Below are positions 3,055-47,284 of a DNA stretch of 64,000 nucleotides, in pieces; the stretch's first letter is position 1; every line of letters starts with the position of its first letter. The translations under genes and the position numbers were made by a program. The notes below the pieces were generated by a model that made no database searches, was not told the origin of the DNA, and saw nothing but the letters and a program-made list of their open reading frames with translations. Source of the stretch: Thuidium tamariscinum (lineage: Eukaryota > Streptophyta > Bryopsida > Hypnales > Thuidiaceae); NCBI GenBank assembly GCA_947034885.2, contig OX344750.2:39294821-39358820 (forward strand), in the 5' to 3' direction.

Positions 3055-4035
3055 GTACAGTCAGGTCCAGCTCATTTACGAATTCTTGCATACACAGGGA
3101 ACAAAACTTCACTGCTGCCAATTTTGATGCCCTCCCAAGGGCTGAAAAATTATTTTTTTAACATGAAATTTTTTTCACAAGATCCTCTCTATGTTAATAA
3201 CACATGTGACAAATTTCAAGGTCAAAAAATTTACCAAAAAAAAGATATTTAGAATCTACTAACATGTGTAGTTAAGAAAAAAACTTCACTACTATCATCT
3301 TTGACACCCTCCCAAAAATTGAAAAAAAAAAATTTGGCCATGAGATCACCTCTATGTTAGTTATATGTGTTGTAAATTTCAGGTTCAAAAAATTTATTCC
3401 AAAAAAGATTTTCGAAATCTACTACCATGTGTCAATATAAGGGACAATTTCACTATTGCCAACTTCGATGTACATATTGGTAGATTTCAAATATATTTTT
3501 TGTGTGAATCTTTTGAACTTGAAATTTATCTTACATGTTATCAACACAAAGATGATCTCATGAAAAAAGTTTCATGGCCAAAACTTTCTTTTTCAATTTT
3601 CGGGAGGGTGTCAAAGTTGGTAATAGTGAAAGTTTTTTTCTTAACTACACATGTTAGTAGATTTTGAATATCTTTTTTTCGGTGAATCTTTTGGCCTTGA
3701 AATTTTCCACACATATAATCAACATAGATATGATTTCATTCCAAAAATTTCATGCCAAAATAAAAAAATTTCAATCCTTGAGACATTGGCAAAGTTGACA
3801 GCAGTGAAAGCTTACAACTACACATGTTGATAGATTTTGCATATCTTTTTTTGGGTGAATCTTTTGGCCTTGAAATTTGCCACATATGTTATCAACTTAG
3901 AAATGATCTTTTACAAAAAATTTCATAGTAAAAAAACAATTTTTCAGCCCTCGAGAGGGTGTCAAAGTTGGCTGTAATGAAATTTTCTTTAACTGTGATT
4001 GCAAAAATTTGTAAATGAGCTGGACCTGACTGTAC
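3055..4035. mobile_element. Fold-back (long inverted-repeat) element, about 980 bp
   Basis: The ends are inverted copies: gtacagtcaggtccagctca at 3055 and its complement ending at 4035 (tgagctggacctgactgtac). Inside, a degenerate unit of roughly 150-180 bp recurs. Its signature is a CTTCACTxxTxxCA stretch, then TTTGACACCCTCCC, a run of A/T, and an ACATGTG block. The units read one way in the left half and as complement in the right half, with the centre near 3500. The whole element can fold on itself. No open reading frame of note and no clear target-site duplication were seen. Confidence 0.75.
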
Positions 4036-8651: not shown

Positions 8652-9279
8652 AATTACTTTGATATATTAGTCTATGAATAAATAATTTAATATAAAATTG
8701 AATGTATTTTTAACTCAATGAATGGTCAGTTCATATAAATTACCATGACTCATGTTGTCAAGGTAGTAAATGGACAATTTTACATTGTACTTAAATGCAA
8801 GCAAAGAAGTTCTAAAACAATGAAAGTTGTACAAAACCTTTCAAGAATGGATATATAATCTATGCTTATGAGTAGTTAGTAACATTTATTTCAAAAAATA
8901 TTCATGTAGAAGGATTTTGTAAAACACTTTGCAATCTCAAAACACCATTCAAAAAATCAACAAAAAAGTAATTACACAATATTTGAGGGCCATATCAAAG
9001 TTGTTTCCTTTGTTGTTCAACCCTTCAAGGAATTATGAACCAATCATTGGTGCAAAATTTTTTGAGTTTAAAACAAAATTTAACCCTTTAGTTTATTAAA
9101 ATATTAGTTACCTTTGTTGAATTTGTTCACTTCAAAAATGATCAAAATAGAAATAAATTCAAAAAATTCTCATGATATCAAATAAATTGAAAACCTTGTA
9201 AATAGTATCACCAAACATAGATCCTTCTTCCAAAAAAATTTGTTCACCCATTCAAACCTTCATTAGATTTTTTTTAGAG

Positions 9280-9590
9280 ATTTTAGAAGATTGAGAGTTT
9301 CTAGTCTATGGGAACACTTTTAGAATAATGAAAACGTTGCCATGTATGCAATTTGACATGGTTGAGAGATTGGTACACAAGATAATATTAATAAATTAAT
9401 TTTAAAACATTTTTGTATTTTTTTTCAATTTCTTTCAATTTCTTTCAATTTCAAAAAAAATTCTAAAAATTTTGGAAAAAAATTGAAAATTCAAATCAAC
9501 AATGGCTAGTTTACAACACAAGGAGCATTTTCAAAGAAAAGCCCTGAAACAATCTTTTAGAAGCTTAAAAAAACATCTAATATTGTTCTT
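9280..9590 (+). repeat. Dispersed repeat R1, copy 1 (degenerate)
   Basis: It shares an ordered set of blocks with 25290-25510 and 35200-35520: AGAxTGxGAGTTTCxA, GGGAAC, GCCA.GT, AAxxxTTGxGA.TGG and, farther on, CCCTGAAACAATCTTTTAGAAG. It is followed here by a CTTTCAATTT simple repeat (9425-9455). Confidence 0.5.
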
Positions 9591-9785
9591 CTCTCCTTCC
9601 AAAGCATCAAATTTTTACAATCCTACACTAAACCCTTCTTCCGAGGCATTTTTTCCTACTCACATCCTATACCTAATTCCTTTCTTTAAAACATCCTTCT
9701 CTTTCATTTTCTTGTTATCCCCAACTTTCGAGGCATCACTTTCTCAACTCCAAAGTTGCCTCGGTAGTAATAAATCCAATCTCAA

Positions 9786-9793
9786 TATAAAAA
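9786..9793 (+). promoter_or_regulatory. TATA box of the PLATZ gene
   Basis: TATAAAAA is conserved in both duplicates (also 18125-18132). It lies about 690 bp upstream of the ATG and upstream of a predicted 5'-UTR intron (donor GTAAGTATAG at 9982, acceptor TTGCACAG ending 10408). Confidence 0.55.
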
Positions 9794-10476
9794 CCCATTG
9801 CACAAGGTTTTTATTGTCACTTACAACATTGACAATATGGTGTCTCTTGTAGGCTATTACATTGAGATTAGTTTGTGAAGTTGGTGTGAGTTTTCAATTT
9901 TAGGCATACATTGGTAGTTGGCTTAAGATTTCATGAAGAATTGAAGTCAACCATCGATTTGAATTTGCAGTGTCTTACAAAGTAAGTATAGAATTTTTTT
10001 TCAAATTTCCTTTTTTATGTACCATGTTAAAGGTCATTTACACTTTGTTCAAAGGGTTTTGTTTTAAAAATGCTATTTTTATAAAATTATAAGTTTATTA
10101 TTCCTATATTTAGAATTTTACTTTTTGCACCCTAATTTTATATTTTACTAGGATGAAAATATAAGTTGGTTATTGTAAATAGGCTTAGTGCCATCTTTGT
10201 AAATAATTGGGCATTACATGCAAATGTTCATATTTGATTTGTTATAGTGGTTAATAGCTAGATTTTTCCTTTTTATTACTTGAAATTTCAAAGTTGATGC
10301 CTTACTATTGTTATAAATTATCTTCAAATATTCTAAAATTTATACAACCTTTTATTAGTTAATCAATGATTCTTCACTAATTATGCCTTTTTGTTTTACA
10401 TTGCACAGTTTTCTTTTCAACATCACACCACATTGGAATACTTTTTAGAACAAAAGTGGGATTCCATCTTTCCAAT

Positions 10477-11517
10477 ATGGTGGGCTTGAGCGGTGCAGAG
10501 TGCCTTGACCTTTGGACATGCTTCATCTTTGCAAGTTACTTGACGATTATTGAGGCCCGAGGTAGCTTGAATTGCCAAGGTTGCAATTCAAATCGAGAGT
10601 GCAACAACTATTATTGCTTAGCTTGCAAGGAAGGAGGATTGTGTCCCAACACGTTCAAGACCAACCAACCACATGACCATCATCCTTGGTTGCAAGTGCG
10701 GCGAATTACAAAAGAGAATGTGGTAAATGCAGTTGAAGTGGAGACCTTTCTTGGTGAGAATGCTAACAAAATCCAAAAGTTTATTGGAAATGGAGAGAAT
10801 ATTTTCAAGTTGAAGACACCGGTGAGGGCAAAAGGAAAAATGGTGAAGGGTTTTGATGATGGTCTTCAACCAATGTGTAGAGGGTGTGATTTTCCCATTT
10901 CAAAGACTTCAAATTCAAAAGCTGGAGTTGAGGTATGCTCCATTGAGTGTCTAATTACACATGCACAACGGGTGCATGAATTGGATTGTCTCACGCTTAA
11001 AGCAGGTCTTGACTTACAAAGTAAAGATTATGTGCACCCTTTGACTGTGGAAGAGAAGGTTCATTTGCAGTTTCAAAAGAAACAAAAAACTAGTGCTTTT
11101 GAGTCTATGCGTATGTCAAGTGCACCCACAATCAAAGACAAGGGTGATAGTGGAGTTTGTACTCGTGTAATATCTCCAACTGCAAAGCGGATGAATTCTA
11201 TGGCCACGGCTTTTGCACCCATGGGGAAACAAAGTAGGCCTCCTGGCAAGCTTGGTGCTAGGCTTGGTGCAACAACAATCAAAGGAGAAGATGGTGGTGG
11301 AGCTTCTGTTCCAATGACAAATCAAGTTTTGAAGAGGAAGGCTCATGACACTTCAACTATGGTGAAGCATCAAGAAGCTAGAGAAACTCATGTTGCTCAA
11401 GTGGTGGGTCCAAGTGAAACCCAAGTTCATGTTTACAATTATTCAACCCTTCCACTTGGGTATGAATGGAGGAATCTAGATCAATTGTGTGAGATCTTTG
11501 ATGTGGCTAGTGAGTAG
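10477..11517 (+). CDS. PLATZ-family zinc-binding protein
   Basis: PLATZ proteins are plant-specific nuclear zinc-dependent DNA-binding proteins, generally repressors acting on A/T-rich sequences. Within about residues 30-170 the layout matches the family. A Cys-rich start (NCQGCNSN, CNNYYCLACK, LCP) is followed by an HDHHPWLQVRR block corresponding to the family's H..H.LLQIRR. Next come VVNAVEVETFLGENANKIQ and KLKTPVRAKG, equivalent to the DV...I.K..D...IQ...IN..KVVFL..RP region. A closing CRGCDFPIS / VCSIECLITH zinc knuckle ends the domain. The C-terminal half is low-complexity and basic, ending in an acidic EIFDVASE. I chose ATG 10477; the frame also extends upstream without an ATG. The coding part is intronless, with a likely 5'-UTR intron 9982-10408. 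About 346 residues. A decayed duplicate is at 18822-19814. The motif fit is good but divergent. Confidence 0.75.
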   Translation: MVGLSGAECLDLWTCFIFASYLTIIEARGSLNCQGCNSNRECNNYYCLACKEGGLCPNTFKTNQPHDHHPWLQVRRITKENVVNAVEVETFLGENANKIQKFIGNGENIFKLKTPVRAKGKMVKGFDDGLQPMCRGCDFPISKTSNSKAGVEVCSIECLITHAQRVHELDCLTLKAGLDLQSKDYVHPLTVEEKVHLQFQKKQKTSAFESMRMSSAPTIKDKGDSGVCTRVISPTAKRMNSMATAFAPMGKQSRPPGKLGARLGATTIKGEDGGGASVPMTNQVLKRKAHDTSTMVKHQEARETHVAQVVGPSETQVHVYNYSTLPLGYEWRNLDQLCEIFDVASE

Positions 11518-12318
11518 GCTTGTGTTGAATTGAAGGGAGAAAAGAGCTCCATGACTCTTATAAAAAACAATTTCATTCTCAGGTCACCATTATGCTAGGT
11601 TAGTAATGTTGGTATATGTAATATTTTGCTCTAGCCTTTGATAGAGCATTCAATAAAGGATGACATTCCCAAAATTAATGTCAAATGACAAGCAGAATTG
11701 TCAAAAATGACATTTTAAAAGTTTGAGAGTGATTGATTACAAATTAAAATTATTGTGTTTCACATTTGTTAACTTTGTAGGAGGAATCAATTTATTGTTT
11801 AGCATTAAATTTCTTGGATTTGAAATACAACCAACTATATTGTACTCTTTCCTATAATTCTAAAAGTGATATTTGTTCAAAGCCCTGAATTATTCAAGTA
11901 CAATGACTCAAGCTTATAATCATCACCACCGACCAGAAATTAACTTGTGTTTGAGAAGGCGGAAATGGCATTAGTAACTGGTCAGTACAGTACCCTCTGG
12001 CCGTGACCATGGTTTTGGAATCATTTATCATTTACTAATAAAAATGTTGATGCATTCCCATTGAGAAATCCACATTGGAAAGCAGACAAATGTTGTCCTT
12101 TTGTGTCTAAGCTTACGGAAATTGGACAAACTGAATGTCCTTTCCTTCTGCATCCTAATCTACCATCACTGGCCCTTGACTACATAATCATCTTCAAAAT
12201 TCCAGAGATGGACATTTGGAATTCTCCTGTGATTTTGTACTTCGGATGCCCAGAGCCAACTTGTTCCCAAAGGCAGTGATATACCTTAACTTAAGCTTAT
12301 GTTGTTTGAGATCAGATT
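11518..12318. other. Spacer between PLATZ gene and phytoglobin gene
   Basis: This is PLATZ 3' flank, with sequence similarity to copy B persisting to about 11850, followed by the 3' flank of the convergent phytoglobin gene. Nothing else was recognised. Confidence 0.5.
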
Positions 12319-16060: not shown

Positions 16061-19000
16061 TCAATTATTTTTTGTGATTTTTAACAACATTATGTATAGG
16101 GCAATGCCCAAGGAAGAGTGCATTTTGCATTATAAAGGGCCAACAAGGAGGGTGGAAGCTGACAAGGAAGCACTTTATATTGTAAAATGCTTGATGACAA
16201 GGAACATTGTCCAACATAAATCATAGGCAGGAAATTTGAAGATGGATGAAATACTTGAGATGGAAAAACAAAGTTGGATGAAGAATTCATAATGCTTGAT
16301 TATGCAATCAAATCCATGTAATTGGGCATTACAGCTTATTGTACCACAAAACTTTCCCAAGAAATGAATGGGCAATTTCCTAGGAGTGGTTTATGATCCA
16401 TATTTAGGGCTTCCAACACTTCATACTATGATCAATTTTCATTTTTATCCATGATGAGATATTAAGATCCTCTACTATGACATGCTTCCAAATGCACAAA
16501 ATTGCACACTTCAATTGAGGGAATTTTTTGTATGTGATTTTAACCCCCCTAAATATATTTGCAAAATGGAAATTGTGAATAATTATAAAAAAATTACTAT
16601 ACTCCATGTATTGTATTGATTTAAGTTTTATATAGTCTTTTATTTCTAGGAAAAAATATGTAACATTGAAAATGTCTTATACCTTGAGAATTATGATTTA
16701 TAAAAACATAAATAGTTTAAATTAATATATTGATTATAATTTTGTATAGAATATCTTTGTGATAATGCAAGATTTATTCCTAATTATTCTAAGAGTAGAA
16801 TATATGTTTTAATATGTCTTGCAAGTATGGATGTATATTGGGATTTCAATGATTTTTAGGTAGAAAAATTTAGAAATCCTAAATATCATTATTATATCCT
16901 TCAAATAAAGTTATTTCTTACAAAGGCTGTATATTTCTCTAATACAAAGTATAAAGTGCTATTCTATAATTATTCTCCTTTTACATGTAAGAGTAATGAT
17001 TCAAAGCACAAACTAATCAATTGCTAATTTGTGGTTCAAAAAAATGATTGAATACAAGATCGGATGGAAATAAAACACTAAATTAGGCATCTAAATGAAC
17101 TCTATATCTAAAAAGATTGCAAATACACAAGTATAAACCCTATCAACATCCATATCACCAAATTCTTAAGAATTTGAGTTTCTATTCTTATAATCTATTG
17201 TAAGAAAAATCAAATTATATTTGTCTATAAGTAACCAATTCATTTCAAATATAGTATTTTGTGAAAAATTACCATTTTGATATATTATTAGGTGACTAAT
17301 TCATTATACACTTGTATATGTATTTAAATCAATGAACAATCAATTCATATAAATTACAATGACACACATTATCAAGGTAGTAAATGGACAAGTTTATATA
17401 GAAGTTCAATGCAAGAAAACAAGTTCCAAAGCTATGATAGTTGTACAAAAGCTTTTGAGAATGGACCCATAATCTATATCTATGAGTAATCAACAAAAAA
17501 AATTCCATATATTAACACGTAAAGGGTTTCATAGAATAATGTGCAATCTCAAAATACCAATCATTTGGAAAAGTCAAGAAAATAAATAAATACAACTTCA
17601 AAATTTAGCTACTTTGAATGTAAAGAAACTACTTCAAAAACTATACAAGTTGTTTAAAAACATATAATTTGTAACAATAGTGAAGATGGTGTAGCTCAAA
17701 ACCCCTCCCAAATCCAAAATTCTTTCTCATGACAACTTCATTTTTAGAAAATTAATTCTTTAGCTTATTGAACTATTGATTACCTTTCTTCACTTAAAAG
17801 ATGATCAAAATAGAAGCAAACTTAGAGAATTAAGGTTTCTCATGATTTTAAATATGTTGAATCCTTTTAAATTATATTACCATCCATAAATCCATCTTCC
17901 AAAGAATTTTGTTCTCACATTCAACCCTCTGTTCTTCTCTCCTACCAAAGCATCAAATTTTCACAATTCTTCAATAAATCCTTCTTCCGAGGCATTTTTT
18001 CCAATTCAATTCCTATCCCTTTCTTGAGAACGTCTTTTTCTTCCATTTAGATCTTATTCCCAACTTTTGAGGCATCCTTTTTTCCACTTGAATGTTGCCT
18101 CGATAGTAGTAAAACCAATCCCAATATAAAAACCCATTGCACAAGGTTCTTATTGTTACTTGCAAGTTGCAACATTGACAATATGGTCTCTAACTTGTAG
18201 GCTATTGCATTGACAATAGTTTGTGAAGTTGGTGCAAGTTTTCAATTTTAGGCATACCATAGTAGTTGGTCTAAGATTTCTAGAAGTCTTGAAGACAACC
18301 ATTGATTTGAATTTGCAATCTTATTAAGTAAAACTTGAATTTTTTTCAAATTTCCATTTTTATATATCATGTTAAAGGTCATTAATAATTTGTTCAAAGA
18401 GCTTTTGTTTAAGGGTGACCATTTTTATGAAATTTCAAGTTTTTTACTACTATATTTTAAATTTTATTTTTTCAAGCCTTATTTTGCATTTGACTAGGAT
18501 GAAAGTATAAGTTGGTTATCAATATTACAATTAGTGTCATCTTTGCAAATAATTGGCATTACATGCAAATGTTTATATTTGATTTATTGTAATAATTAAT
18601 AGCTACATTTCTCTTTTTTATTACTTGAAGTTTCAAAGTTGATGCCTTACTACTGTTATACACACTCTAAAAGTATCCTAAAAGTTATACAACCTTCTAT
18701 TGATTAATCAATGACTCTTCACTAATTATGCCTTTTTGTTTTACATTGCACAATTTTCTTTTCAACATCACACCACATTGAAATACTTTTTAGAACAAAA
18801 GTGGAATTCCATCTTTTCACTATGGTGGGCTTGACCGGTGCATAGTGCCTTGACCTTTGGACATGCTTCATCTTTGCAAGTTACTTGACCACTATTGAGG
18901 CTCGAAGTAGCTTGAATTGCCAAGGTTGCAATTCAAATCGAGGGTGCAACAACTATTATTGCTTGGCATGCAAGGAAGAAAGATTGTGTTCCAACACGTT

Positions 19001-20110
19001 CAAGACCAACCAACCACATGACCATCATCCTTGGTTGCAAGTGCAGTGAATTACAAAAGAAAATGTGGTAAATGTAGTTGAAGTAGAGACCTTTCTTGGT
19101 GAGAATGCTAACAAAATCCAAAAGTTTATTGGAAATGGAGAGAATATTTTCAAGTTGAAGACACCAGTGAGGTCAAAAGGAAAAATGGTGAAGGGTTTTG
19201 ATGATGTTCTTCAACTAATGTGTGATTTTCCCATTTCAAAGACTTCAAACTCAAAAGCTGGAGTTGAGGTATGATCCATTGAGTGTCTAATTACACATGC
19301 ACAACGAGTGCATCAATTAGATTGTTTAATGTTTAAAGCGGTTCTTGACTTACAAAATAAAGATTATGTGCACCCTTTGAGAGTGGAAGAGAAGGTTCAT
19401 TTCCAGTTTCAAAAGAAACAAAAAGCTAGTGCTTTTGAGTCTATGCCTATGTCAAGTACACATGTGCTTGAACTCAATGCACCTGCAATTGTGTCCATGG
19501 GGAAACAAAGTATGCCTTCTGTCAAGCTTAGTACTCGGTTTGGTACTACTCCAACCAAGGGAAAAGTTGGTGGTAGAGCTTCTAATCCAATGACAAATCA
19601 AATTTTGAAGAGAAAGACTCGTGAAGCTTCAACTACAATGAAGCATGAAAAAGCAAGTGATGAAGCTCAACAAACTAGAGCAACTTATGTTGGTCAAATG
19701 ACGGGTCAAAGTGAAACCCAAGTTCATGTTTACGATTATTCAACCTTTCCACTTGGATATGAGTGGAGGAATCTAGATCAATTGTGTGAGATCTTTGATG
19801 TGACTCTTGAGTAGGTTTATATTGGATTGAAGGAAGAAAAGAGCTCCATGGCTCTTGTAGAATGATGTCATTCTTAAGTCACTATAATGTTAGGTTAGTC
19901 AATATAGTGCTACTTTAATTATGTTGGTATGTGTTGTATTTTGCTCTAGCCTTGAATAGAGCACTCAATAATTGATGACATATACAAAAGTAATGTCAAA
20001 TGACATGTGAAGTTGTCAAAAAAATGGCATTTTAAAATTTTGATAGTGATTTTAACATATTTTTCATATGTTAAATTTGTAGAGGGAATGAATTTATTAT
20101 TTAGCAATAA
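16060..20110 (+). repeat. Segmental duplication, copy B
   Basis: Collinear partner of 7200-11850. It has about 310 extra bp near 16095-16405 and no 750-bp element. The 5'-UTR donor GTAAGT of copy A has become GTAAAA here (near 18326). Confidence 0.85.
18822..19814 (+). pseudogene. PLATZ pseudogene (duplicate of 10477-11517)
   Basis: It is homologous to the upstream PLATZ gene throughout. Relative to it there is TAG at codon 8 (18843-18845, from GAG), TGA at 19047-19049 (from CGA in the LQVRRI block) and TGA at 19272-19274 (from the TGC of VCSIEC). There is a 9-bp deletion that removes a zinc-ligand Cys (CRGC region near 19220) and a further in-frame length change in the tail. Open stretches remain at 19065-19271 and 19308-19814, ending EIFDVTLE then TAG. 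Loss of the 5'-UTR donor and of zinc ligands also argues against function. A short downstream-initiated product is conceivable but would lack most of the domain. Confidence 0.85.
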
Positions 20111-21120: not shown

Positions 21121-21470
21121 TCAGCAGACTTTGGACGTCATTTTCACATATAAAATCAACTTTTTTTTAAAAACTTTGAACTAAGAAAAGTTGGGCGATG
21201 AAGTTAACTTTCACCTCCAAAAATCCGTTTCAGATTTTGAGCCTCCAATCAAAAGTTATGCACAAAATTCAGAGTAGATGTTTCGAAATGTCAAAAAACA
21301 TTTCCTTCCAATCTCTCTCTGAACTTTGTCCATAACTTTTGATTGGAGGCTCAAAATCTGAAACGGATTTTTGGAGATGAAAGTTAACTTGATCTCCCAA
21401 CTTTTCTTAGTTCAAAGTTTTCTTAAAAAGGTTAATTTTCTATGTGATAATGACATCCAAAGTCTGCTGA
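21121..21470. repeat. 350-bp fold-back inside the CACTA element
   Basis: Left end TCAGCAGACTTTGGACGTCA (21121-21140) pairs with right end TGACATCCAAAGTCTGCTGA (21451-21470). The pairing continues inward through AACTTTGAACTAAGAAAAGTTGGG and AATCCGTTTCAGATTTTGAG to a small loop near 21290-21310. Confidence 0.85.
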
Positions 21471-25510: not shown

Positions 25511-27497
25511 ACTTATAGGGCCTCTCTATAAAGGTTTAAACTCCCTACCAACAAGAAGAAACAAATCCTTTGTTATAAGGTGGGTACACCTAAAAGCGCC
25601 ACTTTTTGGGTTGTGGATTATTTGAAAGCTGAATATGGAGTAGGGAATGGAGAAAATAGAAGACATGTGTTGGAAAGGAAGACATGAACAATGACCTTTC
25701 TAAAATCAGAAAATCCTAGAGCACAGTAGGGGTGTGAAGTTTTGAAAGTAGGGTGACTAAAACAGCTTATAGGTTGCACTGTAAAAGACGAGTTATGAAC
25801 CTAAGGACATTCTTGCAAAGTGTTAGAAGAGAAATAAAAGTGGGTATTATCACATTCTCCAAGTCTAAAAAGTAATTGATCTCTGAAATTCTGAAAACAC
25901 TTTAATACAATTGACTTCTTCTTGGAAACCGGAATTAAGTACTCATAAGTAGTTTTTATTTTCTATTCTAGTATTTTTTAAAATTTTCTTTCTAATAGTC
26001 CACCCATCACTTGATCTTTCTTCATGAAGTACCTTTCTATGACCTTAATTGCAGTGTAAGTGCAGCAATACCACCTGAAACTGCCATTCCCACTCAGTTT
26101 CCATTTAGAATACATTTACAGTCCATTTTAAAACTGATTTTAGAGTGCGCTTTAAGGCACTGCGCGATTTTGGGTGTATCCACCTTACACATCTGATAAT
26201 GTGGCCCTCACATGTCCAATGTCAAACATATATGTGAGAATTTATCTTTTGTATTTGTACAATATAATGCTCATTTGACATTGTATTGAATACATTCATT
26301 ACTTATATACTATGTACAATGGTATATTATATGGTAAGTATCAAAGGCATTAGAAGGGATTCTCGGAAGGGATTTCACAACAAAAGAAGCCCATTTCAAC
26401 CATGTTCGTGAAACCATTCTCGATATTGTTGGCCGCTAGTCATTGTTAAGCCAACAATTAAATTTTTTTTAAATTCAAAAAAATTCAAAAAAATGTTGGT
26501 CTTGAAATGCAAAAAAGTCCCAAAAAAATTCAAAAAGAAAATTGATGACATAGCACGCTCTCAACCATGTCAGCAAAATCCGTTTTTATGTTTCTCCGAT
26601 AGATTTTGCGTTCTGGTAGTTTGGAAACTCATAGTCTTTTTTTGCCCTAAAATTTCTTTTAATGTTTCCAATGTATGTGTATTTCAACCATACTCATACA
26701 TTTATCAACATTGAACTATAGATATATTGTACACTAATTTATTCAATCCAAAGCAATGGAGGGACTACATTATTTATGGTTTTTTGCTTTTTCATATTTC
26801 ATATGAGCTAGTAATCAAGAAAATATGAGAATGTGCAAGGGTGGACAATATCTACATCTCAAAATATATAATTTGAAATTTGAAAGCGTAACGGAGAATA
26901 TCCACAAAATCCTCATTGAACGTACTCTTTAGATTTCTTTTTGGGTGCTCTAAGACTAACATTCTATAGATACATCCCCATTTAGTTGTTAGAGATTAAT
27001 TTTTAGGAGCATAACAAAGGGGTATTGCAAAAATTGTGAAAATATTCATCTTATCATATTAAGTCTAAAACAATAACACATATTTAGGTTCTAAAAAAAC
27101 TAATTATTTTTCTTACCCTCAAAATTTATCCAATTTTCATTTTTACATTCATTTGGTTGTTTGAGATTAGGGTTGCTAGCGTGCGAGCCTGTAAGCGTGA
27201 GCCTGTGAGCCGGAATTTTTTTTCTTGTCAAAAAAGGATGATGATGTATAACCGTGGATGTACCTATGACTGTGGTTTTAAAGAATGTATATTGTTTTTG
27301 GATTGTTTGGGTTAAGTGTTTAGAGATTCTTATCTAAAAACTTGGAGTTCATCAAAATAGCTTGTATTTCCAAATTTTGGATGAATAAAATTATCTTTGT
27401 ATAACATTGAATAGCTTTAGGGTCATATGTTTGTTTCCTTTCTTCACCTTTTATTTTTTTGGAAGCATATTGAATTTCAAGAAACATGAAATATTTA

Positions 27498-28200
27498 ATT
27501 CACTCCCCATTTTTTTGGATGGAGACATTTTAAGAGGTGAATATTTTTTTCACTCCCCACTTTTTTGGGCGGAGACATTTTAGGAGGTCAATATTGATTT
27601 CAATCCCCATTTTTTTCAACGGAGACATTCCCAAAGGTCAATATTTATTTCAGTCCCCATTTTTTTGGGCGGAGACATTTTAAAAGGTGAATATTTATTT
27701 GACTCTCCTTTTTTTCGATAAAGACATTCCACAATGTCAATATTTATTTCATTCCCCATTTTTTTTGACAGAGACATTCTACAAGGTGAATGTCTATTTC
27801 AATCCCCATTTTTTTCAATAGAGACATTCTGCTAGGTGAATATTTATTTTATCCCCTATTTTTTTTGATAGAGACATTCTATGAACTGAATGTCTATTTC
27901 AATCCCCATTTTGGGGGATAGAGGCACGGAATGATATAAATATATATTTCACTCCCAATTTTTTTCCATGAAGACATTTATATTTATTTCAGTCCCCATT
28001 TTTTTTAAAAGATATTCCAAGAAGTGACTATTTTTTTGAATTCCTATTTTTTAGAATGCAAATATAGTAGGAGGTTTTAGGGATTTGACTCCCCATTTTT
28101 TTCCACAGAGACAGTCTACAAGGTGAATAGTTATTTCACTCCCTATTAATTCCATAGAGAGTTTGAAGAAGGTGAATATTTTTTTCAATCCTCATTTTTG
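27498..28200 (+). repeat. Minisatellite, about twelve units of about 58 bp
   Basis: The repeating unit reads roughly CACTCCCCATTTTTTTGGGC, GGAGACATTTTAAGAGGTGA, ATATTTATTT. Units are moderately diverged, and CCCCATTTTTTT plus GAGACATT mark each one. Confidence 0.85.
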
Positions 28201-28769
28201 GGATGCAAAATTTTAAGGATATGAATATTATTTTGTGAACAATTCTTTTTCACATTGCCCTTCATAGAATAAATTTTTTAATTCATTTTTCATTTTATGG
28301 GTGAAGAATCCTTCTCTATTTGAGAAAAAGATTTACTGTAAGAAGCCGTAAGATATTCAGTTAGGTGTGATGCTATAAATGAATTGGGCCCCATAATTCT
28401 TGGTTTTTGTTTGTATATTGGAAGGTTGAATATTGGCCTTTCAAACTCATCATGTGAATATTAGCATACTATACTAAGGGAGAATTTTAGGATACACCCA
28501 TGTTTTTAAAAATTAAAATTTGCTTCAAAAAAATACAATATGTTCTTCAACTAATTTTAAAAAAATTCAAATATTTGAAATAAGAAGCAAGTAATTCTTC
28601 TCTAGAATTATATACCTCATGTTTTAGGGTTCATAGAATATAAAGGCTTAGAATACAAGATTGGGTGAAAAAAAATAACACAACATATAGCTATAAAGCA
28701 CACAAATCCAATCATAATCAAAATCTAAACATATTGATTTGACTTATGAGATATGTCAATTTCATAAGT

Positions 28770-31700
28770 CTAATTTGCAATAGACTCCGTTGCAGAGTCC
28801 ATGTCACTAGAAGAGTCAGAAGTCTCTCTATCCTCCAATGTTGATCCATCTATAAATTGTAAGACATTTAGAGCATACGAAGGTTTAAGTGATTTGGATT
28901 TCAAAGTACCAAACTCCGCAAACGCTGAAGCTACTTGCTCTGCATAGATTGGAAGATCAAATGGCTTTTCGGGGCTCAAGATGAGTCTTTGTCTCTTTTT
29001 TACTTCGTCCTCCACAATCACTCCCTCACTTCTGTAAATTCAAAGGAAGCATTGTTAGAATTATGAAACATAACAAATATCAAGAAATTGAGAAATTTAA
29101 AAATAAGAAAAACTTACTTACTAGGTTTAGGTCGCCGAATGAATTTGCAAGGTACTATCACCACAGCCTCTTGGTCTTGTGATGAAACAATTGTCGGCTA
29201 CTCTGGACTTGGATCCGCGGTCACTGGAGAAGCGGACTTCTTCATTGGCAGAAGGACGTATTGGAAAATCCTCTTATCTTCCTCCAACGCTACAATATGC
29301 CTCCTAGTTGCACAACAAACAGTAATGGATGCACCTGCTATAAACCAAGAATTATATCATCTGCATAATGATTATCTATTAAAAAAAATTCAGTGTGCAA
29401 AAATAATAGAAGAAGAATTCACCTATGGATGCAGTGTAGTCTAGCACTATGTCCCTTTCATCAGTAGTGCTCCCAATGATGAATTGAATGAAGCGCACGT
29501 CCTTCTCTCATGCTCCTCACTAAGCCATTTGATCCATGTCATTCATCAACATTGTGTCATCCGTGGTATAATTCATAAGCAGGTCATCACGATAGAGGTC
29601 TACCTTTGCCTTGAGCATTATTTGAGAGCACCTGAATTCGAAATTTGATTCTCCTCTGTCTCCAAGATGTTTGTCAAAAAGTGTGATGCCAAACTTCAAC
29701 GTCTGCAAGTATAAACAAAACTCACATGAGATTAGGTAACAATACAAGTAATAAATTCAAATAATTATACTAAATTATTCTAATAAAATGATGGAGTCTT
29801 ACCGTTTGGTCTGGGTGAATTGCCGATGTAAGGTGCATCCGATTCATACCCATCCAGTCCTTCTTCTTCCTGATATTTGGGTATTCCTGAAGAAATCCTG
29901 CAATGATTTCTAGGGAGTTTTGGCCCCAAGAATGAAACACCACAAGTTCTCCTAGCAGGCAAGTTCTTCTAGCAGGCAAAGATCATAAGATCAAATCCTG
30001 GCTGTCGATTAACCACCCCATCATACACCCTCACCTTCCCTATGACCATCTGCAAGAATATTTGTTCAATATATGAGTATTTGCATGAACAAGTTTAAAA
30101 AAAAATCTTGTTAGTCAAATAACACTCTACACTTCAAAGATAAATAAAAACATTACCTTCCGTAGAAAATTCATGACCTTTGTATAAGAGTTTGGTCCCC
30201 GGATTCCTTCGTTGTTGACCACCTCTAAAATTGAGACATTAAGTAGTAATTCTTCGGAATTGATGTCGTCGTCATCTCCAAGAGCAATGACTTGTGTCCA
30301 TTGTGTAATAACCTCCTCCGTGAAGTCTGGAAGTATAGCCTTCTTCTTCATCTCTCCCTCAGATGCACTCTGCATTTCGGAGCCCTCATCCATTGCAGAC
30401 GACACTGGAATGTCACTTCCTTCTTCTTTCCTTTAGCTCGGGCCTTCTCCTCCTTCTCCTTCTCTTTCTCCTTCAACTTGGCCACACGCTTTGCCTCCTT
30501 CTTCTCCTTGTTCTCCAAAGTGATTTAAATCCGTATTGCCTTCCTCCTGTCCATGGTTTCCCTTCGCACAATAGCCTTCTCCCTTTGTTTTTCACTAAGG
30601 CCTAGGAATTGTCAACGTCTATATTGATGGTGCCTTGTCCTTCCAAAGAGGCCCACAATTCTACCTTTGATGGATGCGAATATGAGATTGGACAATCAAT
30701 GTACCATCCACTACCACTGAGATGAGCGGTAGTGAAAGTCTTCAACTGATCGAGTTGGAGTATACATACAATCTTTCGAATTGCGGTCCAAAAAATTGGT
30801 CAAGAAGGTAGGTAGGTCCTCAGTCTTGATTGCTTTTTTACCTTCCAGCTCATATTTGAAGTACCTGAAGTTTGAAGAAGAAACAATAAATAGAAATGAT
30901 AAACTTCAATCTCAACTACCAAATGATTTGGCAACCTTTTGGAATGGATACCAATTACCAATTATTTATTGTAAATTCGTAGTTTGAGATGGAAAATTAT
31001 GACTTTAAAGTTTGCAAGGGACAAGAATTGAGGGGGTCCTTGAGCTACCTCCCTGACATAGCTCAGATCCGAGCTATGATTGGGAGGTAGCTCAAGGATC
31101 CCCCCAGTTTTTGATTTCCTACTTTGATTTTTGATTTTTTTGAATTTTTTTCTGTGTTCAAATGCAACGATTGACTTATAATTACAAATTACTTACTCTA
31201 AATTAGAAATTTGAAATGAAAAACTATGACTTCAAAATTTGCAAGGGACAAGAACTAGAGGGGTCCCTAAGCTACCTCCCAGACATAGCTTGGATCCGAG
31301 CTATGTCTGGAAGGTAGCTTAGGGACCCCTCTACAATTTTTGAATTTCTACTTTGATTTTTGATTTTTTTGAAATTTTGTTTTTGTTCAAATGCAAAGAT
31401 TGACTTATAAAAAGTTCACTACCTATAATGACATGAATGAGCTATCATTTTTAGAAACTCACCGAAAAAGAACCCTTCTTACTACTTGCTTAGATCCCTC
31501 GAAGGTATAGAAGTTATCGTTTTTTTTAAGTAAATAGCTCCTCAAAGGTGAACTAAAAACCTTTGATCCCATATCTTTGTTCTTCATCCTTCCAAATGGT
31601 CCGTGAGAGTCTCTAGTTTTAGTGGAACCTTCATGTCTATGGATATATTGTCCTGCCTCACAACACCCTCAAAGTAATCCACTACAACATCTTCAATTTG

Positions 31701-34106
31701 GAATAGAGAATATAAAATTACAATCCACATGATGAAGAGTAGTATGCTTCATGATTACAAAATTTAAATCATTATTTAACAGAGACTAGAAAACTTGAAA
31801 TACTTGAAAACAAACCTCCAAACATATTTCTTACCTTAGCATATTAAATACAACGGTTGAGAAATGGTCCAAGTAGTGTCTCAGACACTAGCCTTGGTGG
31901 GAGACGCCTTGCATCACGAGAGGGAATAGAAGAGTTCCACCACTTCAGGAATTTGATTTTGTGAGTTGCCGTGGTATTGCACGTTGCAACCATTTGGAGT
32001 TCTTGAGAGTCATCTCGGGAACCTCATTTGTACTCCAATGCTTCTCAACCTGACAAAAATGATGAGAGATTCAGACTTCTAATTGCCATGATATAAAAAC
32101 CATTGTCTTCATTTTTTGAAATTTGCAAAGGCCTTACCTCTTTCAAGAAGTCGTGCTCATTAGCCGGATTAGCAACGGAGGCCAATTTAGACATCTTCAC
32201 ATTGAGCTTTCCGGTCCTCTCTTTTGCTACAAATCTCATAGCGTGTATGAATTCCTTTGGAGTTCTCTCATCTTCTGGTGTGATCTCGTTGTACTTTCGT
32301 ACTACTGCATCTGCGGATTGAGCGATCTCTTGCTGCATAATTGCAAGGCCAATCAAAATGAACCAAAGCTTCAAAAACAAAACTAAACATACTAAAATAC
32401 ATTGTATTGAAAACAAGAATTATCAAAATAATTTCATACCCAAAAAATAAAAAATGTAAAAACCTCTTGTGGCATAAAATACCACATCTTCTTCAATTTA
32501 TGTGTCATACAGCGTTTAAGCTCAGATGGCCTTAACATTTTGTTGAAGTGCTCTATGAGCAAAAGCCCATACTTTTGAACTCTATAAAGGGTATGAACCA
32601 AATTGGTCTTTACATGTGAGTCCTTTGTAGACTTGAAAATAAATGAGGTTTGATAAGTATATGCATTTCATGTATTGCAAGTTTAGGTGAAACAATTTTA
32701 AAACTTAATGAAAACCTAAAATAAAACCTCAAAGACAGAATATAAGTAAATAACTTACTTGTTTATGTCATGCATGACATGCATAACAAGCTCAATTTTG
32801 CCCTTTGTATCCAACACAATTGAGTCCACAATCCAATGCCATTCTAAGTCCTTGGAGTGCATTCGTGAAATGTAATTCATCCATAACAACATGTGGTGAT
32901 TTCCGTCACATACAAAGAATTTTAAGTTCTTCAAAAACCTCAATTCAAGAACGGACTGCACATGGGCGTTGAAGATTTGGTTCTTCAACTTCCATAAAGG
33001 ACCCCAATTTTCTATCTCTTCCTACGAGAATTTGGAGCTTTCTCTTCCTTTGTTTGTAGTTGTTAAGTAGAAAACTATTGCTCTATCATAGTAGCCCTTT
33101 CCAAATTCATGCTCAAGCAAATCAAGGTCGCAAGACAAAGTTGGTCTTACCATGGGCATTGCCACCATCTAACATAAGGGAATTTGAAGCCGAAACAAAT
33201 TATTGGGCTTCATCCTCAAGCCTGTAATAGTATTCACTGAGTCTACCTTGTGGTATTGGCGGAGGTCATCTTTCGATAGGTCTTTGTCATCTTCCTCTAT
33301 CAATTCCTCCACCACATTTTCTCCTGTGACACCTCTCTCTACTTCGCCAGTAATAGAAGGTTGAGTTGTATCATCCGTGTTCGAGATTTCTATAATGGTT
33401 TTTTCTTGGAAAAGAATTAATGGAGACACTTCCATCTGCAATAATAAACCATTCACAAATGTTCAACCACAAGCCTACCTTTATAATCCAGAAATCAATG
33501 CAAAATTCAAGTTCAAATCACAGATAAACTTTCAATAGATAGAATATATAAGTAATACATTAGTATTGGAAGATATAAGGTTTTATAGTGCCATTTGAAG
33601 ATATGTATTTTTTTAAAACACAGATCTCAGTCAATCTCTACATCTTCCTCTAAGTCTGAACTCAAGTGAATGAAAACTAGCACATGCGGACTTCTAGGAT
33701 CATTGCAAGCATACGTACATGTGTCTTGTAGTGGTGGACCATCAATGCTAATGGAGACATGAGGCTCAGAGTTGTACTCAGTCTCAGAGCTCTCTGAAGA
33801 CAAGCACCTAAAACCCCTTCGTCTAGCTATCTCTGCAAGCCTCAAGGTATGTCTTCGTCTCCGTACGTTCGGATCATTGACACGACTGAGTACGGAACTT
33901 TGAAAAGCATCTACTACACTCTCTGGAGCATCCATGACATCTCCAAAACTTACCAAGTCTTCCGCTATAGGTTGTTCCTTCGAATTACTAGAAACATGCT
34001 TGTCTGGACTCTCAAATGCAAGTGGCTGTGAAGGTCTTGCTTTGTGAACAACTGCGACACTTGAGGGCACTAGTAAAGGTGAAGCTACGCCTTCTCCAAT
34101 ATGTCT
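28770..34106 (-). pseudogene. Decayed ParB-like / DNA N-methyltransferase-type gene, about 11 exons
   Basis: Exons inferred on the minus strand from splice sites and phase: 34106-33719 (uncertain), 33435-32759, 32631-32464, 32332-32138, 32049-31835, 31690-31463, 30864-30157, 30049-29803, 29702-29423, 29334-29118 and 29031-28770. Exon 2 encodes a ParB-like module: MVAMPM, a CDLDLLEHEF block, then FFVCDGNHHMLLWMNYI, resembling the DGNHR core of ParB/sulfiredoxin folds. Next is a Lys/Glu-rich linker (KLKEKEKEKEEK). The end carries RFIQFIIGSTTDERDIVLDY-TASIGAS and RRHIVALEED across a phase-matched junction. This is the AdoMet-binding motif I of DNA N4/N6 methylases in its C-terminal (beta-class) position. 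A DPPY-type motif IV is not recognisable. Stops occur in exons 2 (two), 5, 7, 9 (three close together) and 10, and frameshifts in 5, 6, 7 and 8. Function is therefore lost or only partly kept. The family assignment is inference from motifs. Confidence 0.7.
30984..31400. repeat. Two direct repeats of about 200 bp, each with a perfect-type palindrome
   Basis: Units about 30984-31192 and 31209-31400 share GTTTGCAAGGGACAAGAA and TTTCTACTTTGATTTTTGAT. Each centres on a palindrome: 31032-31105 (74 bp, core CAGATCCGAG) and 31259-31330 (72 bp, one mismatch, core TTGGATCCGAG). They lie in an intron of the ParB/methylase-like gene. Confidence 0.9.
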
Positions 34107-44190: not shown

Positions 44191-44576
44191 TAGTCTTCCT
44201 AAACCTTCACAGACTTGGTGGAATGTAACTTACTGTACAATGCAATGCTTGCACGAACTAGCTTAGACTCTTACCGACGTAGCTCTACGTTAGATGTTTG
44301 TCCAGGTTCAAATCGATCGATCAGAAATAAGTTAGTTTAATATTTAGTACGTCTAGATCGCTAGAGTGTCATGTATGTACTCGGCTTTTCTTGTATGTAA
44401 TCCTTAGCTTGTGGCTTTTGGAGTGACAGAGATGTTGAAGGTATGGCAGTTCCCGGAAGAACAAGAGTTACGACGTACATATTCTTCTAAATCTTGTTCT
44501 TCATGGAGTCCGCGCTGATTCCAAGAAGAACTGAACCGAACATTCTCCAGGCCTAATACCCATATATATCCTCACC

Positions 44577-47284
44577 ATGAGGGTGATCTCCGTGTTTCCT
44601 TTCGTGTTGCTGCTGCTGCTGTTCCATCTTGCTCAATATGCAGCACTGACAGCGGATGGAGAGGCTTTATTGGAGCTCAAGAAGGGCTTGAACGTGACAA
44701 CGGAGCTGCAAACCTGGACTGCAGCAGACTTATCGCCATGCTATTGGGAGGGCATCAAATGCACTGCGAGCTTGGAGCACGTAGAGTCCATCTCTTTGCC
44801 TCGTTTGAAAACTACGGAGGGTGCTGTTCTCTCTCCCACCATTGGGAGATTAGGGTTCCTGAGGAGCATTGACCTCTCGTTCAGTGGGATATCAGGGACG
44901 ATTCCTGTGGAGATCGGGGGCCTTCGGAGGTTGAGTAAGCTGGACTTAAGTGGAAACAAATTAGTTGGTACCATTCCGAAAGAGTTCGGGCGGTTGACGA
45001 GGTTGACAGAGGTGAGGCTTGGGACAAACAAGTTGGAGGGGGAGATACCGGAGGAACTGGCAGCGTGCCCGAACTTGGAAGTTATTGATGTGAGGGCTAA
45101 TGGACTGAATGGCAGCATTCCAGGAGTATTGTACAGGAACCGGATGATCAAGGAGGTCGCGCTGTATGAAAACAATTTTACGGGGGACATAGGCCAAGGT
45201 ACGTGAAAAACAGAGATCAGCTTGCAACAATTGACGAGTAACCTTAGCTGAAATTATCAAACTCTACACGTTCTATTTCATTGAATCTGGACCAGCAACG
45301 GGCTGCCTATATTCTTATTTTAGATTTGTGGTTAAGAACAATTTTACTTGTCAGTTGACGAATAAAAATTATAATTACCGTCTGTTTTGCATACTAATTA
45401 GAGGATTTGGTGCAATTAGGGGTTTGAGGGTTTAGGGTTTAAGGGTCATTTTCACCACTTTCAAACATTGAAGAGTTGAGCGGCTATATTGACAGCACAA
45501 GGATGCTTGACATTTGACCAACATTGTTCGTTCCTAGACCTTATTTTGGTGTAGGATATAAGTTTGACACAAAAGCATCCCCCCCTTCTTTTGGAAGAGT
45601 GGCTCACTGAGGTGTTTTCGGACCGGCAGTTGTGGCAGGCTTGGCGAACTCGCCAAACATCAGCCTCATTGATGTGAGTCACAACAAGTTTTCCGGCACT
45701 TTGCCATCATCGATACAGGGATTTGCTGCTCTTTCGACATTGATTATCATGTTCAACCGTGTCACGGGAAGGATACCTGACTGGCCAGGGCTCTTGCCCA
45801 AGCTCGAGCGTTTGAGCTTGCAGGGCAATGAGCTTCAAGGAACAATCCCGAGTTCACTTGGAAATAGTCGAAGTCTAGTCTTTCTCGCACTCTCTGCAAA
45901 CCCACTCACAGGCACTATTCCACCGGAACTGGGCAAGTTGCAAATCCTTCGTTGGCTGGAGATCAGCGACAGTAGTGTGAGTGGGACGATTCCGGAGTCA
46001 CTGGGGAACTGCTCGTCACTTGAGCTTCTTCTCATCCGTAACACCTCCGTCAATGGCACCATCCCAGCCAGCCTTGGAAACCTCAAAAGCTTACTCATGT
46101 TGGATCTGTCTAACAACAATCTGGAAGGGCCAATTCCATCTACGCTTGGGGAATGCACGCAACTCACCTATCTAGTCTTGGCCAACAACAGAATCTCAGG
46201 GACAGTACCATCCCAACTCGTGGATTGCACGAACTTGCAGCAGCTTCTGCTTCAAAACAACCAACTCTCTGGAGTCTTTGATCTGGACTTCAGTAACATC
46301 AGGTCGCTGACCTATCTCTCCATCTCCAACAACTCCCTGTCAGGAAATATCTACAAGTCCCTCTTGACCAATCCCCATTTCATTTATTTTGACGCCAACA
46401 GGAACAACTTCGTCGGGGAGTTTTTTGGAGACTTCAACGTGGCTTCGTTCTTGTCATTGAGGGTGCTCATGCTTGGACACAATCAACTCCAGGGTCGAGT
46501 TCCCTCATGGATGTGGACTTTTCCAGTTCTCCAAATTTTGGACCTCTCGTACAACCATCTGTCAGGGCCATTTCGAAGTGACTTCACCCAATTCCAAGGC
46601 TTCATCGACAAGAATGTAACAGCCAAGCCTATCGAAACCGCTGTCGGGCCCATACTCACCAACCAAGACTTAGCGCTTCTGGTGAAAGGGGGTACGCAGA
46701 AACTCTCCATAAGCAGTTGGCATTTTGTCATTGCCCTGAATTTAGCGGAGAACAAGTTCAGTGGCAGCATTCCCGGAAATATTGGGGAGCTAAAGAACCT
46801 TGTGTACTGCAATCTTTCGAACAATGCATTCACTGGCACAGTTCCCGAGGGGTTCGGCGCCCTACCTCTTCAATCTTTGGATATTTCCAGCAACTTTCTG
46901 CAAGGGCCCATACCCGAAGAGTTTAGTGCATTGACGCAGTTGAGCACTCTCCGACTGGCCAACAACAACCTTGCGGGTGCAATCCCATCTGGGACGCAGT
47001 TGCAAGGGTTTGGAGAGGATTCCTATCTTCCGGGAAACAGCGATCTGTGTGGGACACCGCTTTCGAAAATCTGCCACAAGGGCTCTAGGGTTGCAGCTGT
47101 TGCTAGCACCCGAAGTCTTGATGTCACGCTTATATCTATTCCTGCATTTGTCTTGGGCACTGCGCTCGGCTTCGTCTCCGTGGGCGCTATGTACCGAGCT
47201 TGCTTCTATCGCCAGCATCCGCAACTCCGTTCTTGGCGAGGGTGGAAAGAACAGCAGTATGGCTTGTGGCGACGTCCCAAGTAA
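44577..47284 (+). CDS. Leucine-rich-repeat receptor-like protein (no kinase)
   Basis: Two exons, 44577-45198 and 45630-47284, joined in phase 1 across a GT-AG intron (donor GTACGTG, acceptor ACCGGCAG); 758 residues. A signal peptide (leucine-rich core, residues about 5-22) precedes an LRRNT cap with CYWEGIKC (about 55-62). About 22 plant-type repeats (LxxLDLSxNxLxGxIPxxLG) follow. A non-LRR island at about 530-570 (FIDKNVTAKP to KLSISSWHF) precedes the last repeats. A closing DLCGTPLSKIC cap leads to one membrane helix (IPAFVLGTALGFVSVGAMY, about 708-730) and a short basic tail (RQHPQLRSWRGWKEQQYGLW). This is the architecture of RLPs related to CLAVATA2/Cf-type proteins, which act at the plasma membrane and need partner kinases such as SOBIR1-type proteins. 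The ligand is unknown. Confidence 0.93.
45421..45446 (+). repeat. Short telomere-like tract in the RLP intron
   Basis: GGTTTGAGGGTTTAGGGTTT resembles degenerate TTTAGGG units. A longer variant lies downstream of the gene. Confidence 0.5.

Follow-up and report, generated by a model that had tools for sequence, protein, structure and literature searches.

Introduction

Mutator-like elements (MULEs), which include the VANDAL transposons, create target duplications of 8-11 bp, and the word methyltransferase is absent from the main text of the survey describing them (PMC6446971). A precedent for an accessory, sequence-specific factor is VANC (PMC5735166). Here we describe a gene of the moss Thuidium tamariscinum found in a stretch of 64,000 nucleotides (the window; assembly GCA_947034885.2, contig OX344750.2, positions 39,294,821 to 39,358,820). 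The minus strand of the window carries, from about 34.1 to 28.8 kb, a spliced, eukaryotic-style gene in which an exon with a CDGNHR motif (exon B) is followed by a linker of Lys/Glu type and, towards the C-terminal end, by a methyltransferase segment (exons H to J). The gene belongs to a transposon with terminal repeats, 10-bp target duplications, a divergent two-gene layout and a high copy number; it is under purifying selection between subfamilies, and its C-terminal part has methyltransferase homology. The new point is the transposon context, and the gene is best read as an accessory gene of a new type, carried by a Mutator-like transposon. Another accessory gene of such transposons is mudrB.

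Comparison with the known systems revealed both shared and distinct features. The element has in common with MULEs, VANDAL included, the 10-bp duplication, the terminal repeats, a SWIM-like CxC...CxH end of the transposase and an extra open reading frame (ORF), but its transposase is unrecognised by PF10551 and its accessory gene is methyltransferase-derived. The bdelloid N4CMT likewise places a bacterial-type amino-methyltransferase fold in a eukaryotic genome. However, N4CMT, an active enzyme fused to a chromodomain, has kept its catalytic SPPY, and its activity is abolished when SPPY is changed to APPA (PMC8885841). The element protein shows the same arrangement as the beta-class N6-adenine methyltransferases M.DpnA and CcrM (PF01555), with the motif IV block before the X/I block. 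Unlike members of the N6_N4_Mtase family, the gene is split over exons, fused to the CDGNHR exon and a long linker, carried on a eukaryotic transposon and scored below the Pfam cut-off. The part of the literature that was covered yielded no description of a methyltransferase-like gene in a moss transposon.

The gene is carried by a high-copy transposon

The genome (363.2 Mb in 19 contigs) contains at least 150 scored places for exon B (the best 150 of 578 candidates) and at least 150 for exon H (the best 150 of 620). As 119 of the best 150 places of the 88-amino-acid exon, again of 578 candidates, have no internal stop, the gene is more than a chance reading. Twenty stretches of about 9.9 kb around exon matches were retrieved for comparison. 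A right end, TAGCAACCCTG, is common to 17 of them with at most one mismatch, and is missing from copies L020, L021 and L025. Four copies from two subfamilies, those in which left ends were read, were extended by 10 kb upstream and compared. The four complete units measure 15,036, 14,994, 15,742 and 15,881 bp. All of them start with CAATGACGCTAGCGT or a sequence close to it, and each lies between exact direct repeats of 10 bp. The unit ends form imperfect inverted repeats rich in GTGAGCCT, with alignment scores of 20-29 against shuffle maxima of 14-15. In the subfamilies that were read, repeats of the GTGAGCCT type occur at the right end. In the subfamily of the window copy, about 6-13 copies of a 50-bp unit are arrayed near the right end, and about three copies of a 48-bp unit are found in L019. 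This array would be a candidate binding region.

A second gene, transcribed divergently, lies in the left half of the unit; its large ORFs measure 751 and 469 amino acids in complete element E22, and a CxC...CxH stretch stands at its end. SWIM matches of this partner gene remained below the Pfam threshold (E values of 0.35, 0.073 and 0.011), and Pfam gave no match to PF10551, the MULE transposase family. PF10551 finds 70 places in the same genome, 35 of them over the cut-off, but these MULE matches are separate from the element: on comparison of the lists by eye, none of the 70 coincides with any of the best 150 transposase places. An ordinary PF10551 MULE is therefore rejected. A 177-amino-acid transposase piece was matched at no fewer than 150 places (the best 150 of 723 candidates). 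At 129 of these best 150, a listed exon B or H lies within 20 kb in divergent orientation, with a median distance of 10.4 kb. When places were distributed at random over these contigs, 200 trials gave on average 2.6 and at most 7 linked places, with the sizes of two contigs guessed. We call the partner gene a transposase by its position, copy number and SWIM-like end, and MULEs are nearest to it in features. The suspicion of an element-borne system, raised when only the window had been read, is borne out by the 10-bp duplications together with this linked transposase-like gene.

The places are unevenly spread over the genome. One contig, C11, which makes up 17.5 of the 363.2 Mb (about 5% of the genome), is strongly enriched, with 54 exon B, 46 exon H and 37 transposase places among the best 150 of each. 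Such enrichment would fit a sex or accessory chromosome.

Relation of the C-terminal part to beta-class methyltransferases

Profile comparisons place the C-terminal part among the homologues of beta-class adenine methyltransferases, in agreement with the relation to bacterial N4/N6 methylases suggested before. The METHYLTRANSFERASE homology was detected with the window exons alone, at an E value of 0.0092 for PF01555 (below the cut-off) and 1.6e-6 for a PHROG methyltransferase. Divergent sibling copies gave 0.0018-0.0051 for PF01555 and 1.8e-4 and 6.3e-4 for PHROG DNA methyltransferases; the PF01555 scores of the window copy and of sibling copies from the same genome ranged from 16.4 to 18.7 bits. 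A profile of six spliced copies matched M.DpnA (3.5e-4) and CcrM (0.02) in the PDB. With four of these six copies and ten database homologues, most of them partial, the matches were M.DpnA at 1.2e-7, CcrM at 3.5e-5 and MboIIA at 0.12. In tblastn at a limit of E<=10, the relative from Ceratodon purpureus matched 410 records, with annotated phage methylases among them and 2e-6 as the best E value listed. For the motif X-I-II block (64 columns), hhalign against three phage methylases reached 96.3%.

The order of the motifs, IV followed by X and then I, is colinear with DpnA and CcrM and corresponds to the beta class. In the alignments, D-x-P-E-N-L stands opposite DPPYN and DCTASTGAS opposite the motif I region, and DCTASTGAS...ACRATGRHIVALEEDK of the element matches motifs I and II of M.DpnA and CcrM. 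Differences were found in motifs IV and X. Among the fetched copies, 18 have an exon H that includes the motif IV site, and DPP(Y/F/W) is present in none of them; instead, the site reads DCQEN, DCPEN, DCLEN, DCQKN, DMPEG, DMLEG or, once, DC*EN. The aligned database homologues that cover this site also lack DPP(Y/F/W), and HPTQKP of motif X is replaced by WRGxREK. Since DPPY is lost in all 18 copies, and the SPPY to APPA change inactivates N4CMT, ordinary N6 or N4 methylation by this protein appears unlikely. The active N6-adenine or N4-cytosine methylase envisaged in the preliminary description is weakened accordingly.

Selection and distribution of homologues

The ratios of nonsynonymous to synonymous substitution (dN/dS) were calculated by the Nei-Gojobori method for chosen subfamily pairs. 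Exon H showed a dN/dS of 0.08 between L016 and L019, at a synonymous divergence (dS) of 0.76, and exon I 0.06 between L016 and L021. The pair L022-L027 gave 0.16, 0.13 and 0.16 for exons H, I and J, and L024-L026 gave 0.14-0.61 over four exons. Taken together, these values indicate that the protein was kept by selection during divergence of the transposon.

The profile of exons H to J matched 32 proteins at E<=1, including KC19_5G032000 of Ceratodon purpureus, and that of exon B matched 856 proteins among 1702 candidates at the same threshold. Moss DNA in metagenomes may stand behind some of these 856 homologues and may pass there as hypothetical proteins. The search with the full-length protein yielded none at E<=0.01 among the 7999 best candidates. 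At the sensitivity of two peptide patterns together with tblastn, neither exon B nor exons H to J had relatives in IMG/VR viral contigs, and exon B had none in GTDB prokaryotic genomes, where exons H to J were not scanned. A recognisable giant-virus or recent bacterial source is rejected within this scope.

Proposed role and alternative explanations

We propose that, in a large DNA transposon of high copy number, this is probably the accessory gene beside the transposase, with a C-terminal part that came from a beta-class methyltransferase and would now act as a DNA-binding helper. The C-terminal domain would have been derived from a DNA adenine methyltransferase of bacterial or phage type, with the fold-defining motif I/II core kept, DPPY swapped for D-x-(P/Q/L)-(E/K)-(N/G)-L and the usual amino-group methylation presumably lost. 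The protein may bind its own element at the terminal repeats of the GTGAGCCT type, as well as at the 50-bp array in the subfamily of the window copy, and may thereby aid transposition or prevent silencing of the element, as VANC does for Arabidopsis VANDAL, by analogy and not by homology. By this analogy, the protein most likely acts as an accessory factor that binds the DNA of the element encoding it. A plant DNA transposon that keeps a protein of bacterial-methyltransferase fold under selection at high copy number would add a new kind of accessory factor to VANC and the Ulp1-bearing KIUs. It would also provide an example, open to experiment, of how a mobile element recruits an enzyme that had probably lost its chemistry beforehand. 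It is also a warning that methylase-like proteins of bryophytes may be transposon genes.

Several observations weigh against this proposal. The proposed likeness to VANC is one of role, and the tandem-repeat scan found no such 50-bp array in the L022 and L024 groups, so the array is not present in all subfamilies. The acid of motif II, the Asp of motif I and one motif I Gly are kept, which is compatible with binding of S-adenosylmethionine. The low dN/dS of exon B (0.04-0.05 for both L022-L027 and L016-L019) comes with a saturated dS above 2, and dS is saturated or undefined in many of the wider subfamily pairs. Close pairs are noisy, with some dN/dS values of 0.4 or more (0.45 for exon B of L019-L021 and 1.86 for exon J of L022-L023). 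The best Pfam score for PF01555, that of the Ceratodon purpureus protein, is 25.2 bits under a cut-off of 26.7. The six-frame search of the genome with PF01555 gave no match, as expected when a domain is distributed over three exons and scores under the cut-off. The AlphaFold model of the methyltransferase region has a predicted local distance difference test (pLDDT) value of 35.2, too poor for use.

An element-encoded DNA amino-methyltransferase with a non-canonical DxPEN/G motif, marking its own transposon with N6-methyladenine or N4-methylcytosine, would agree with the fold homology to N6-adenine enzymes, with the kept motif IV Asp and motif II acid, with the purifying selection and with the fact that the DxxE(N/G)L stretch itself is largely conserved. 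We nevertheless consider it unlikely, given the absence of DPP(Y/F/W), the inactive APPA form of N4CMT and the replaced motif X. That moss transposons would maintain such an enzyme with a rebuilt motif, and mark themselves to evade or hijack host silencing, seems improbable as well; if true, this plant lineage would possess a transposon-borne, bacterial-derived DNA modification. A host gene family that lies in repeats by chance and is no transposon cargo is highly improbable. Although the gene is intron-rich, conserved and present in many copies, the four copies read end to end sit in 15-kb units with terminal repeats and 10-bp duplications, and the gene accompanies the great majority of the best transposase places. 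For these four copies, a host gene outside transposons is refuted; a single-copy domesticated relative, for which no search was made, could exist.

The origin of exon B is a separate matter. The preliminary description had assigned it to ParB, and a true ParB/sulfiredoxin-fold module joined to the methyltransferase, in a fusion inherited from a phage or bacterium, is possible but doubtful. The CDGNHR motif and the order helix-strand-insert-strand-CDGNHR-helix resemble those of the ParB/sulfiredoxin superfamily, to which no profile match was significant. The AlphaFold model of exon B shows an alpha-beta pattern before CDGNHR and a helix after it at low confidence (pLDDT 47.8, too poor for use). 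Weak matches were obtained to the ParB-like family PHROG_1033 in 8 of 39 homologues (best E value 0.082) and to DUF1015 in 2 of 39 (best 0.002). However, KMP11, a kinetoplastid family, scores equally well (4 of 39, best 0.00072), indicating that such E values mean little. The ParB family PF02195 itself matched no place in the genome, with a control that matched in 11 of 14 genomes, and none of the 39 homologues at E<=1. SopB of F, the one ParB compared by hhalign, reached 0.2%, although a single SopB is a poor proxy for the family. Exon B found only unrelated proteins in the PDB, at E values of 0.16 or worse, and nothing better than E 3 by tblastn against phage and plasmid sequences; the lack of relatives in viral and prokaryotic contigs, at the sensitivity given above, also argues against an inherited fusion. 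ParB is thus an unproven resemblance at the level of a motif.

The copy in the window

The features of the window copy are as follows; the boundaries of exons B to G were set by eye.

27168-34106, minus strand: 5'-truncated transposon copy with gene and right end, transposase half absent; nucleotide match to complete elements E13/E14 over 33960-27218
27168-27220, minus strand: right terminal repeat (plus strand TAGGGTTGCTAGCGTGCGAGCCTGTAAGCGTGAGCCTGTGAGCC...), identical but for one mismatch to the other copies, which end in CAGGGTTGCTA
27460-28203, no strand: tandem array of units of about 50 bp, inside the element near its right end
33642-34106, minus strand: exon A, probable upstream exon, acidic and Ser-rich, with related sequence in other copies
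32759-33435, minus strand: exon B, CDGNHR (ParB-like) exon with two in-frame stops
32464-32631, minus strand: exon C
32138-32332, minus strand: exon D
31835-32049, minus strand: exon E, frameshifted/stopped
31463-31697, minus strand: exon F, frameshifted
30157-30864, minus strand: exon G, Lys/Glu-rich linker, frameshifted
29803-30049, minus strand: exon H, first half of the methyltransferase-like domain; motif IV stretch of other copies absent, frame broken
29423-29702, minus strand: exon I, motif X-like REKD... and LDYTASIG (first part of motif I), with stops
29118-29334, minus strand: exon J, ASITV...HIVALEED (second part of motif I and motif II), one in-frame stop
28770-29031, minus strand: exon K, C-terminal, to the stop codon

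The gene ends 1.6 kb short of the transposon end at 27168. No tblastn match to the transposase pieces and no convincing left end of the element were found in the window, indicating a 5'-truncated copy. The segments on which the preliminary description was based were all recovered on the minus strand: VCDGNHH within the ORF 32755-33021, the Lys/Glu linker at about 30.55-30.43 kb, LDYTASIG and HIVALEED. The two phase-matched splice junctions in the methyltransferase part also hold when read by eye, one (...CAAACG/GT to CAG/ACGTTG) in phase 0 and the other (...CCATAG/GTGAAT to GCAG/GTGCATCC) in phase 1. The same exon edges are found in the reading frames of sibling copies, so the view of a spliced eukaryotic gene stands. 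A scripted search in the sibling copy L022 gave frame-consistent GT-AG candidates for the junctions B-C to H-I and J-K; since many pairs fit, its support is weak. For the junction I-J, which rests on reading by eye, the range of the search was too narrow and no sensible pair emerged. No clear-cut splice pair was obtained between exons A and B by the same search; exon A may be part of the transcript of exons B to K or separate from it.

The window copy is dead, a point absent from the preliminary description. Exon B is stopped at about 33169 and 33022, exon I contains two adjacent stops and a further one, and exon J contains a stop; exons E to G are frameshifted, and a deletion in exon H removed the motif IV region. 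This copy itself cannot act.

The intron between exons F and G contains, at 30953-31410, two tandem units of 227 bp with a palindromic core (GAGCTACCTCCC...AGCTCGGATCCGAGCT). A similar palindrome lies at about 34.95-35.04 kb.

Neighbouring features

No RNA families or tRNAs were found in the window. The segments 8683-11707 and 17297-20022, which lie about 8.3-8.6 kb apart, are tandem duplicates and include an ORF at 10381-11514 on the plus strand; its Cys/His pattern and the sequence HDHHPWLQVRR look to us like a PLATZ-type zinc protein. A GC-richer stretch at 44535-47281 (plus strand) holds long ORFs with leucine-rich repeats, presumably resembling a plant leucine-rich repeat receptor gene. 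In addition, an inverted repeat at 21121-21470 has 154-nucleotide arms that are 92% complementary around a 42-nucleotide gap, and another at 3100-3989 has arms of 174-179 nucleotides at 79-82%. Both are possibly foldback elements or elements like miniature inverted-repeat transposable elements.

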